From a bacterium (GTDB lineage: Bacteria > UBP6 > JAFGXH01): DNA of 36,177 nt. The stretch covers positions 1-36,177 of the forward strand of contig JAMOQH010000129.1 of NCBI GenBank assembly GCA_027064085.1, given 5' to 3'. The position numbers and the translations under genes are program-made. Shown one piece after another: positions 29,016 through 32,763 of this stretch. Every line of letters starts with the position of its first letter. Within the stretch, counting starts at the first letter, position 1. The notes below the pieces were generated by a model. The model was given only the letters and a program-made list of their open reading frames with translations, was not told where the DNA came from and did not search any database.

Positions 29016-29585
29016 ATGAAGAAGTTTTTACTTTTAGCAATCTCACTTGTATTTTTGGCTTCTTGTGGAAGCAAAACTGTTGTAGTTCAAGGTGGTGGAG
29101 ATGGAAGACCTGCATGGACAATGAAAGGTGCAGGTGCTTTTACAATTGAAGGAAGAAAAGTTTTTAGAGCAGTTGGTCTTAGTAGTGATCTAGGTGACGA
29201 AGGAATGACTAATAACCAATCAGCAGATGATGCAAGAAAGAATTTATCTTTTGTTATGAAAACTTATGTTAAAGCTTTAGATGAATCTTATAAAAGATCA
29301 ATAAAAACTGGTGATATGCCTAAAGCTCAATTTGAACAAGATATTACTCATGTTTCAGAAGTTATGACTAAGTCAAAATTTTCTGGTGCTCAAGTAGTTG
29401 ACAGATGGATTGACCCTAAAACCAACAGCGTTTATACTCTTTTAGAACTAGACTTAGGTGCTGTTCAAAATATGATTAAGAATGCAAAAGGTATCTCTCA
29501 AGCACTTATTGATACAGTAGGTAAGCGTTCAGAAGAAGCTCACGAAAGATTAAATGAGAAATTAAAAGAAGTTGGTGATTTCTAG
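29016..29585 (+). CDS. LPP20-like lipoprotein
   Basis: A 189-residue lipoprotein: signal peptide with lipobox LASC (Cys17), then a domain resembling the LPP20 family (PAWTMKGAG, KVFRAVGLSSD, followed by an ARKNLSF helix and a late strand YTLLELDLGAVQ). Such proteins are outer-membrane or surface lipoproteins of unknown function, first known from Helicobacter. The C-terminal 40 residues form a charged helix (KRSEEAHERLNEKLKEVG). An ideal TTTGGAGGAATT site precedes the ATG, codons are less AT-rich than average here and a strong terminator follows, so abundant expression is likely. The match to LPP20 is by pattern only. Confidence 0.75.
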   Translation: MKKFLLLAISLVFLASCGSKTVVVQGGGDGRPAWTMKGAGAFTIEGRKVFRAVGLSSDLGDEGMTNNQSADDARKNLSFVMKTYVKALDESYKRSIKTGDMPKAQFEQDITHVSEVMTKSKFSGAQVVDRWIDPKTNSVYTLLELDLGAVQNMIKNAKGISQALIDTVGKRSEEAHERLNEKLKEVGDF

Positions 29586-29604: not shown

Positions 29605-29632
29605 AAAAAGGGGCAAATGCCCCTTTTTTTTT
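29605..29632 (+). terminator. Strong intrinsic terminator after the LPP20-like gene
   Basis: AAAAAGGGGC (29605-29614), loop AAAT, GCCCCTTTTT (29619-29628) and continued T run to 29632. It is a clear Rho-independent terminator. Confidence 0.95.
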
Positions 29633-29699
29633 ACTAAATTCTTTATTTATTCTTAAAATTGTAATATTATAGTAATCCTAATGTTTATTTAGAGGAATT

Positions 29700-31406
29700 A
29701 TGGGTAAAACATCAAAATCTTTTAATAATTTTATTGAAGAAAATCATTTACTAAAGAAAGCGAATAAACTAGCTCATAAATATATGTCCGTTTTAAAAAG
29801 AAGAGAAATAGGTAAAACCATGTATAATCATGTTTTTGCTGTAGCAAAACATGTATATGATGCCGGGGTTACAGATATTGATATTATATCTGCAGCTTTT
29901 TTACATGATATTGTTGAAGACTCTGATAAGAGTTTAGAGAAAAGCCCAGAACTAAAAATAGCAATAACTGTAGATTATTTAAAAAAAGAATTTAATCATA
30001 ACATCGCTCATATAGTTGAAAATTTATCCAATATTTCATCACAAAAACTAGAAAAGGATTACAGAAAAAAACTAAATCTAAATAAAAGTGATAATGTAAA
30101 ATATCAATTAAAAAGAATGAATTATGTAAAAGGTTTCATGAAGCATCTTCTTGAAGCAGTAAAATTAAATATACTAGAATCCTTATTCTTAATAAAATTT
30201 TTTGATAGATATCATAATATGCAAACATTACAATATCATGGTAATGCAAGAAAACAAAATATGATTGCAAAAGAAACATTAGATATTTATATCCCATTAT
30301 TTTATATGGTTAAGCAAATACCAATAACTTATATTTATAACATGGAAAGAATTGCTTTTCAATATATGTATCCTGATATTTATGAGAATAGGCTCAGATA
30401 CTTAGAGCAAAATAAAAGTAAATTTGATAATGAATTTGAATTTCTAAAAAATTACATAAATAAAAACTATGAAAATATTGAAGTAATAGCAAAAGAAAGA
30501 AGTTTTTACCGTTTACATCTTACTAAAAGTAATTTTTCTGGTGTTAATTATGCAATTAATGAAGTTATCATTATATCTAAAGAACCTAGTTACGAAGAAT
30601 ACGACAAATTATCAGTAGAAGAATCTGAACAGATAAAACTAGATACAGAAAAAAGGCTTTATAACATTATGGTCGATTTAATTCACCTTTCTCTAAAAGG
30701 AAGTAAAAGGTCTAATAGGCACTATTTAATTCAAAATGATGCATTTAAGTACAGTTTGAATTTTCATTATGCACAAGCATACCTAAGACCTTTACCCGCA
30801 ATGAGATTAAACCTATATAGCAATAATAATAAAGTCATGTTTCAATTAAATTTAACAACAGAAAATAAATTTAATACTTATAATAAAAGAAGAGATATTA
30901 AAACATGGGTAAAAGATTTAAAAGATGTCCAAGAAAATCTTGTTTCAAATAATTCAACAGAAGGTACTTATGAAAAACTAAGAATGGATTTTTTGAAACC
31001 AGTAACCTTATATACTCCCAAAGGTGACTATTATCATTTACCATCTAATGCAACTTTAAGAGATTTCGCTTTTAGGATTCATACCGATTTAGGAATTCAT
31101 GGAAATTATGCCTTAATTAACCAAGTTGAAGAAATTGATCTAAATAAAAAAGTAACAGAATATCATGGAAATATAGTTGAGATAGTGTTATCTAATGAAG
31201 AAAGAAGTTTTGAAGATATTAATTTTTCTAAAATTTATTCGGAAACAGAACTTGCAAGTTCTGAAAAAAAGATAGATGAATTTGTTAAAAAATATTTAAA
31301 AGAAAATTTTGGCAATGATTTGAGTCAGGAAAAATTAACAAAATTAATAAAAATATTTAAAAAAGAAATTGAGAAAAAATTTACAAGAAGAGCAAAAAGG
31401 TATTAG
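29700..31406 (+). CDS. RelA/SpoT-like protein: HD hydrolase and TGS domains, degenerate synthetase
   Basis: A 568-residue protein. Residues about 15-200 match the RSH ppGpp-hydrolase HD domain: Arg35, His44, His69-Asp70, Glu73-Asp74 (FLHDIVEDS) and FFDRYHNMQTL with Asp169 and Asn173, the known metal and guanine-site residues. NMERIAFQYMYP (214-225) corresponds to the RSH linker. Residues about 255-400 occupy the place of the ppGpp synthetase but lack its recognisable motifs (no YSIYxK, no catalytic Asp strand, no NGYQSLHT). A TGS domain follows at 434-498 (LYTPKGDYYHLPSNATLRDFAFRIHTD). There is no ACT domain; the C-terminus is a Lys-rich helix. It is probably a ppGpp hydrolase or ribosome-responsive regulator that has lost synthesis. 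GAGG precedes ATG 29700, and a short-chain reductase follows after three bases. Confidence 0.85.
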   Translation: MGKTSKSFNNFIEENHLLKKANKLAHKYMSVLKRREIGKTMYNHVFAVAKHVYDAGVTDIDIISAAFLHDIVEDSDKSLEKSPELKIAITVDYLKKEFNHNIAHIVENLSNISSQKLEKDYRKKLNLNKSDNVKYQLKRMNYVKGFMKHLLEAVKLNILESLFLIKFFDRYHNMQTLQYHGNARKQNMIAKETLDIYIPLFYMVKQIPITYIYNMERIAFQYMYPDIYENRLRYLEQNKSKFDNEFEFLKNYINKNYENIEVIAKERSFYRLHLTKSNFSGVNYAINEVIIISKEPSYEEYDKLSVEESEQIKLDTEKRLYNIMVDLIHLSLKGSKRSNRHYLIQNDAFKYSLNFHYAQAYLRPLPAMRLNLYSNNNKVMFQLNLTTENKFNTYNKRRDIKTWVKDLKDVQENLVSNNSTEGTYEKLRMDFLKPVTLYTPKGDYYHLPSNATLRDFAFRIHTDLGIHGNYALINQVEEIDLNKKVTEYHGNIVEIVLSNEERSFEDINFSKIYSETELASSEKKIDEFVKKYLKENFGNDLSQEKLTKLIKIFKKEIEKKFTRRAKRY

Positions 31407-32133: not shown

Positions 32134-32763
32134 CTATTTTTTACCATAAAATAAACTAATTAATTTGTTTAAATCATCCTTGTTTATATATCTTTCTGCC
32201 TTCTTTGTATTCCCTAACAAATCAATATCTAAATTATAATTTATCCATTGAACTAAAAATCTTGCTAATTTTTTATTTTCAGAATTTATTTCAAGATAAT
32301 TTTTAACCTTTTTAGTTTTAGAAAAATCAATTAAAACCACTCTTTTATTTTCAAATAAAAAATTATTTAGTTTAATATCATCATGAATAAATCCATTTTG
32401 ATGAAGATAGCCAAATGCTTTAAAAATATTGTAAATATAATCATTTATATTATTTAAATTAAATTTATTCTCAATAAACTCCATAGAATAAAAACAATAA
32501 TCTTTAGCTTTATATAACTCATAGCCTCTTATTATATAGGGTGAACGCAACTTTACTATAGTTTTAAACTCATTTTGGAGTAAAGATATATTTTCTTTAT
32601 TTTTTATAATTTTTAAAACGCTTTCCTTGTCTAGAAGTTTATCATAAACTTTAATTATTTCATGTGTTATATTAGAATATAAGGTTTGTAACTTTATAAA
32701 TCTATCTATAATTACCAAATTACTATTATTTACAAATGTTTTTGTTGAAGTTTCATTTATCAT
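32134..32763 (-). CDS. Minimal protein-kinase-like protein
   Basis: A 209-residue protein with a short eukaryotic-type kinase fold. VLKIIK supplies the ATP-binding Lys (about residue 51), YLHQNGFIHDDIKLNNFLF the catalytic HxDxKxxN loop, and LIDFSKTKK the DFG-equivalent (DFS). No glycine-rich loop is evident and the C-lobe after DFS is only about 60 residues, shorter than Hanks-type Ser/Thr kinases and closer in size to Bud32/Kae-type or lipopolysaccharide-type small kinases. No membrane segment or sensor domain is seen. Its ATG overlaps the stop of the thermonuclease by four bases (ATGA), so the two are coupled. The target is unknown; catalytic residues are intact, so activity is plausible. 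Confidence 0.75.
   Translation of the reverse strand: MINETSTKTFVNNSNLVIIDRFIKLQTLYSNITHEIIKVYDKLLDKESVLKIIKNKENISLLQNEFKTIVKLRSPYIIRGYELYKAKDYCFYSMEFIENKFNLNNINDYIYNIFKAFGYLHQNGFIHDDIKLNNFLFENKRVVLIDFSKTKKVKNYLEINSENKKLARFLVQWINYNLDIDLLGNTKKAERYINKDDLNKLISLFYGKK

Follow-up and report, generated by a model that had tools for sequence, protein, structure and literature searches.

Gene neighborhood and domain organization

The window, i.e. the whole stretch of 36,177 nucleotides that was analyzed, contains an ORF for an RSH-like protein of 568 residues, flanked by genes for a lipoprotein and an SDR-family reductase (Table 1). A terminator-like hairpin followed by T9 lies between the lipoprotein gene and the ORF, and thus the latter probably has its own transcript start. 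The lipoprotein (positions 29016–29585) is LPP20-like and belongs to a family of several paralogs, with homologs in the genome that contains the window (G000, contig C69) and in two relatives of the same family, G001 (C369 and C270) and G002 (C79, C29 and C153). In the relatives, copies of this gene are often located at contig ends and likely break the assemblies. On the opposite strand, positions 32134–32763 encode a 209-residue protein kinase-like protein (Pkinase, 2.3e-14), which is short compared to a full kinase.

The reductase was initially annotated as FabG-like, which hinted at a link to fatty-acid metabolism. It scores 146.6 bits with the FabG model TIGR01830 (cut-off 297.75) and 201.7 bits with the TmpR model (cut-off 325), below the threshold in both cases, and the SDR proteins of G000, G001 and G002 all match the TmpR pteridine/dihydrofolate reductase model best, again below its cut-off. 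The three-base spacing suggests co-transcription with the RSH-like ORF in G000. However, the SDR orthologs in G001 (53%) and G002 (51%) are located elsewhere with no adjoining RSH, and in G002 the next gene after the RSH-like copy encodes a membrane protein, not an SDR. A functional link between the two proteins in fatty-acid metabolism is therefore very improbable, and the idea of a FabG operon was discarded on account of the non-conserved pairing.

The order of HD_4, a domain at the synthetase (SYNTH) position and TGS corresponds to the layout of long-type RSHs. An HMM of the HD domain derived from ∼20 long RSHs gives 86 bits, compared to a maximum of 7.7 for shuffled sequences; a general HD model overlaps HD_4 below its own cut-off. 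The TGS domain is as clear as the initial annotation had it, and Pfam detects neither a zinc-finger nor an ACT/RRM domain in the 568 residues, in agreement with its statement that no ACT domain is present. The NCBIfam Rel/SpoT family model yields 122.6 bits, far below the cut-off of 499.2. The solved structure that it matches best by sequence is Rel of B. subtilis (PDB 6yxa; E 8e-17, residues 35–552). A classification as a small alarmone hydrolase (SAH/MESH1 type), which consists of a single HD_4 domain of ∼180–200 residues, was rejected in view of the length of the protein and its further domains.

Table 1. Features of the RSH-like locus (positions refer to the window).
Feature	Positions	Strand	Remarks
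Intrinsic-terminator-like GC hairpin GGGGCAAATGCCCC + T9	29610..29632	+	Read directly; terminator function putative
Shine-Dalgarno-like AGAGGA, 3 bases before the ATG of the RSH-like ORF	29691..29696	+	Read directly
RSH-like ORF, 568 aa, ATG start	29700..31406	+	HD, pseudo-SYNTH, Core-like, TGS, short helical tail; ortholog in G002
HD_4 hydrolase domain, residues 23–200	29766..30299	+	Pfam E 3e-13; Z ∼17 against small alarmone hydrolases, including MESH1
R34, equivalent to RelSeq R44/SpoTAb R45 (guanine stacking)	29799..29801	+	Alignments; replaces the earlier R35
M41 at the position of RelSeq Y50/SpoTAb Y51, Y42 adjacent	29820..29822	+	Alignment; Tyr or Phe elsewhere; the one inactivating position not kept
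HDIVED motif, H69-D70-x-x-E73-D74	29904..29921	+	Alignment
α6-α7 region, residues 110–160	30027..30179	+	Alignments; exceeds the canonical Rel region by ∼18 residues
K166-xx-D169-R170-xx-N173-xx-T176 (KFFDRYHNMQT)	30195..30227	+	Alignment; metal/3'-pyrophosphate side; SpoTAb K140, R144, N147, T150
Pseudo-synthetase domain, residues 256–386	30465..30857	+	Predicted β-α-β-α-β-β-β, the SYNTH order; lacks the catalytic motifs
Helical linker at the SpoT Core domain position, residues 400–432	30897..30995	+	Position only; predicted helices 400–416 and 423–432, low confidence
TGS domain, residues 434–499	30999..31196	+	Pfam 436–496, E 1.3e-9; Z 10.8, rmsd 1.4 to 3hvz
Short C-terminal helical tail, residues 509–567	31224..31400	+	Pfam and AF2 model
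SDR-family reductase, starting with TTG three bases downstream of the RSH stop codon	31410..32123	+	Closer to TmpR (pteridine reductase) than to FabG; not paired with the RSH-like gene in the relatives

Hydrolase site and synthetase position

Residues R34, H44, H69, D70, E73, D74, K166, D169, R170, N173 and T176 are kept in the RSH-like protein and its ortholog in G002. The full set of Rel/SpoT hydrolase residues listed in the initial annotation thus holds for H44, H69-D70, E73-D74, D169 and N173, while its R35 should read R34 (residue 35 is a lysine in the ortholog). The four metal ligands H44, H69, D70 and D169 are all retained. In SpoT of A. baumannii (SpoTAb), substitution of R45, Y51, E82, D83 or N147 inactivates the enzyme (PMC9974481). 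Four of these five positions are preserved (R34, E73, D74 and N173, respectively), and the fifth, Y51, corresponds to M41; M41 and the adjacent Y42 are common to both orthologs. Elsewhere in the site, K46 of SpoTAb corresponds to R35, K140 to K166, R144 to R170, T150 to T176 and L154 to H180. On the 5'-phosphate side, K158 is replaced by K185 (Gln in the ortholog) and R161 by M188 (Thr in the ortholog). The lengthened α6-α7 region could be a regulatory site.

The region at the synthetase position spans ∼145 residues and carries two insertions of ∼14 and ∼15 residues. Pfam finds no match to RelA_SpoT (PF04607) at E≤1 in the protein. A SYNTH HMM trained on the corresponding domains of ∼20 long RSHs gives 1.0 bit for the protein and −4.9 for its ortholog, compared to 4.8 for the best of 200 shuffled controls and ∼187 for real synthetases. 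In the alignment with long RSHs, GRxK(H), the aspartate and arginine of YDLxAxR, H312 and E323 were not found, and by alignment and HMM the catalytic residues D272, Q347, R249 and R277 of the Rel synthetase are lost. Y351 may be equivalent to the conserved Tyr308, and Q382 is possibly the Gln, in a part where the alignment is uncertain. An intact but divergent synthetase was ruled out by Pfam, the alignment, the profile comparison of the middle region and the SYNTH HMM.

Residues 15–502 align with 20 long RSHs in a single collinear profile alignment (probability 99.9%, E 7e-35), whereas the pseudo-SYNTH segment by itself gives no significant match to RSHs in a profile comparison. The assignment of its origin therefore rests on this collinearity together with structural models of modest quality. 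An AF2 model based on five sequences has a mean pLDDT of 63.8, with values mostly between 85 and 92 in the HD domain and between 54 and 82 in the strands and helices of the middle region. Residues 4–379 of this model superimpose on 7oiw (Z 22.8, rmsd 3.6 over 283 residues) and on SpoT 7qpr (Z 20.3, rmsd 3.5 over 285 residues), a likeness to Rel that is partly built in, since the alignment took in three other long RSHs. A model from the two orthologs only, which contains no RSH rows and is thus a less biased check, is poor (pLDDT 43.9). Its residues ∼220–389 nevertheless match nucleotidyltransferases weakly (Z 4.5–5.2, rmsd 3.8–5.7), including 6lbk, 8oef, terminal uridylyltransferases, DNA polymerase beta, CapRel and the GTP pyrophosphokinase family protein 2be3. 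The comparison with the nucleotidyltransferase fold that the initial annotation had proposed as a check thus gave a match, weak in the two-ortholog model and at Z 20–23 over HD and SYNTH together in the five-sequence model. Given the weak RSH-free match and the collinearity, a degenerate synthetase fold is the best reading, and the SYNTH position appears from these models to hold a nucleotidyltransferase-like domain that is catalytically dead.

Conservation, distribution and the full-length Rel

The ortholog in G002 (L040:85-1779) is 64% identical over 561 residues. Between the two orthologs, dN is ∼0.29 overall and dS is saturated; a pseudogene or random ORF was excluded by the ortholog and by dN/dS. 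By domain, dN amounts to 0.25 for HD, 0.26 for pseudo-SYNTH, 0.23 for TGS, 0.37 for the linker and 0.42 for the tail. The dead synthetase is hence as constrained as the hydrolase domain, and the pseudo-SYNTH domain probably has a structural role.

Among 386 genomes, a pseudo-SYNTH profile detected relatives in none other than G000 and G002, and the viral contigs likewise contained none. In the genome contigs, which were scanned with two peptide patterns, the sole match was the G002 record. Matches in the phage and plasmid collections were all weak, at ∼25% identity, with the annotations shown being those of ordinary RelA/SpoT proteins. Scans of viral contigs for additional long RSHs turned up few. 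This narrow distribution, comprising two orthologs both from MAGs, applies to these collections at these sensitivities. The protein forms a long branch in all trees (FastTree, local support). In the HD tree, calculated without SpoT sequences, it weakly joins the family's own Rel (0.82), but TGS does not. Two other RSH-related ORFs have unusual fusions: a 474-residue protein of G001 (L078:6310-7734, C202) combines a RelA_SpoT synthetase domain with a SAM methyltransferase, and a 1109-residue ORF of G002 (L070:596-3925, C92) combines HD_4, a weak synthetase and an EamA transporter. The 4-kb contig that carries the latter also has a site-specific-recombinase-like ORF and may be foreign.

The search for a separate full-length RSH, also suggested in the initial annotation, identified one in G000 (745 residues, L036:2840-5077), which contains HD_4, a SYNTH domain with intact motifs (PF04607, 141.9 bits), TGS, AH/RIS and ACT. 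The synthetase motifs are intact in the full-length Rel proteins of the family. Their HD motif has an extra residue within HDxxED, reading HDTVEGD in G000 and HDVMEYD in G001 (L039) and G002 (L038). The other 18 long RSHs aligned, among them proteins from other families of the phylum, have HDxxED or HDxxEE without insertion, and no E-x-D arrangement was found among the HD proteins of the phage collection, in which the HDxxE[DE] motif could be read in 74 cases. Another HD_4 protein of G000 is small (301 residues, L037:2858-3763, C84; motif HDVIED) and is encoded close to an ORF resembling an antitoxin-type HTH and metallopeptidase protein and to an ATPase-like ORF (names assigned by eye).

Proposed function and comparison with known systems

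Based on the sequence, the models and the analogy to SpoTAb, we consider it fairly probable that the protein is a long RSH specialized for (p)ppGpp hydrolysis ([Hs] type), independent of the ribosome and with a structural pseudo-synthetase. In the proposed mechanism, H44, H69, D70 and D169 would hold the HD metal, the guanine would stack on R34, and the 3'-pyrophosphate of (p)ppGpp would be cleaved via E73/D74 with N173, K166 and R170. In SpoTAb, Core and TGS clamp α6-α7 and keep the HD site ready for hydrolysis (PMC9974481); the pseudo-SYNTH domain, the Core-like helices and TGS may likewise keep HD hydrolysis-competent here. Since the zinc-finger and ACT/RRM domains are absent, stalled ribosomes should not affect the protein, which would work alongside the full-length Rel of the cell with its intact synthetase. 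Counting against a hydrolase are the replacement of Y51 by Met41, the lack of conservation at K158/R161, the longer α6-α7 loop and the fact that only two orthologs are available.

Some of the same features could point to another substrate. HD_4 enzymes acting on (p)ppApp (7smg, Z 13.8) or NADPH (human MESH1, 5vxa) exist, and with the 5'-phosphate-side residues K158/R161 and Y51 of SpoTAb not kept, the protein might mainly hydrolyze such a 3'-pyrophosphate or nucleotide in place of (p)ppGpp. We regard this as unlikely: R34, the presumed guanine-stacking residue, is retained together with T176, and the long HD-SYNTH-TGS architecture has so far been linked to (p)ppGpp. The loss of the tyrosine (Tyr50 in RelSeq, here Met41) and the long branch in all trees would also fit an RSH paralog without any catalytic activity and with a purely regulatory role, which might bind the full-length Rel or the ribosome through TGS. 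However, the two orthologs, although ∼37% of their positions differ, share all four metal-binding residues and both residues of the ED pair, a conservation that a dead site would not need; such a role is accordingly quite improbable. A hydrolase of (p)ppGpp remains the preferred reading.

A further proposal, compatible with a (p)ppGpp hydrolase, concerns the division of labor with the full-length Rel. E82 and D83 are each essential for hydrolysis in SpoTAb (PMC9974481), and so the residue inserted in the HDxxED motif may weaken or abolish hydrolysis by Rel. With its SYNTH domain intact (PF04607 ∼141 bits), Rel might have become mostly a synthetase while the RSH-like protein took over hydrolysis, a reciprocal subfunctionalization that would be an independent analog of RelA[hS] and SpoT[Hs], outside the Beta-/Gammaproteobacteria pair. 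The motif distribution agrees with such a split (three of three family members, compared to none of the 18 other long RSHs, and no E-x-D in the phage-collection HD proteins), but the three genomes are non-independent evidence, as they probably reflect one ancestral change, and MAFFT is able to place the shifted Asp opposite D82. Moreover, G001, which is 93% complete, contains the HDVMEYD Rel with neither an ortholog of the RSH-like gene nor another HD_4 protein, and its Rel may therefore still hydrolyze, unless the gene is in the missing 7%. A search for an empty site in G001 located the genes that flank the RSH-like ORF elsewhere or at contig ends. The small HD_4 protein of G000 is another possible hydrolase. 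The case of G001 in particular leaves the split as a hypothesis, which we find possible but doubtful. If true, ribosome sensing would be cut from alarmone removal. If the partner Rel really lacks hydrolysis, the RelA/SpoT division of labor would have evolved on more than one occasion, with the inserted residue (E-x-D) as a simple, testable switch.

Hydrolase-only alarmone enzymes were described in the initial annotation as usually short. Small alarmone hydrolases and MESH1 are indeed hydrolase-only and match the HD domain (Z ∼17), but they consist of a single domain with neither a pseudo-SYNTH domain nor TGS. Long examples are also known: the Moraxellaceae SpoT[Hs] proteins have been described since 2011 (PMC3153485), and a solved structure is available for A. 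baumannii SpoT, a long RSH that is hydrolase-only and contains a pseudo-SYNTH domain (PMC9974481, PDB 7qpr). Like these, the protein is a long RSH combining an HD domain with hydrolase residues, an apparently folded but dead synthetase position and TGS, in a cell where another long RSH carries the synthetase. It is most likely convergent with Moraxellaceae SpoT[Hs], and we do not claim membership in SpoT itself. SpoTAb differs in keeping HEL, zinc-finger, RRM and a short α6-α7 loop, whereas the present protein has a tail that stops shortly after TGS, a longer loop and a pseudo-SYNTH domain that carries insertions of ∼14 and 15 residues and can no longer be recognized by sequence. Thus, α6-α7 is shortened in SpoT[Hs] and lengthened in the present protein. 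SpoTAb without RRM and zinc-finger supports normal growth with activity reduced ∼5-fold, and additional removal of TGS-HEL reduces it 42-fold (PMC9974481). Most of this minimal working set (HD, pseudo-SYNTH, two helices at the Core position, TGS and a short tail) is present, and the protein approximates the part that suffices in the A. baumannii truncations, and thereby offers a natural test of the domains required for hydrolysis. If it is hydrolase-only, it adds another non-catalytic synthetase domain kept in a long RSH, outside the one well-studied lineage.

Bifunctional Rel[HS] proteins (B. subtilis 6yxa, T. thermophilus 6s2t, RelSeq 1vj7) share the HD-SYNTH-TGS order and the HD residues, but the present protein lacks their SYNTH motifs, zinc-finger and ACT. 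RshC[HS] of Bacillus is a long RSH similarly truncated in the helical domain soon after TGS; however, it is classed as keeping both activities, whereas SYNTH is lost here (PMC3153485). A 625-residue RSH on a viral contig (L083:2956-4830, IMG/VR UViG_3300028591_008352), ∼38% to the nearest Bacteroidota Rel, also combines an intact HD motif (HDVVED) with a degenerate SYNTH domain, and may represent a second, independent case of a long RSH restricted to hydrolysis; it has TGS and, unlike the protein described here, keeps ACT and a recognizable SYNTH domain (PF04607, 34.8 bits). Long hydrolase-only RSHs with a pseudo-synthetase are therefore rare but already documented, and what is new is the combination in this lineage, with SYNTH eroded past recognition.
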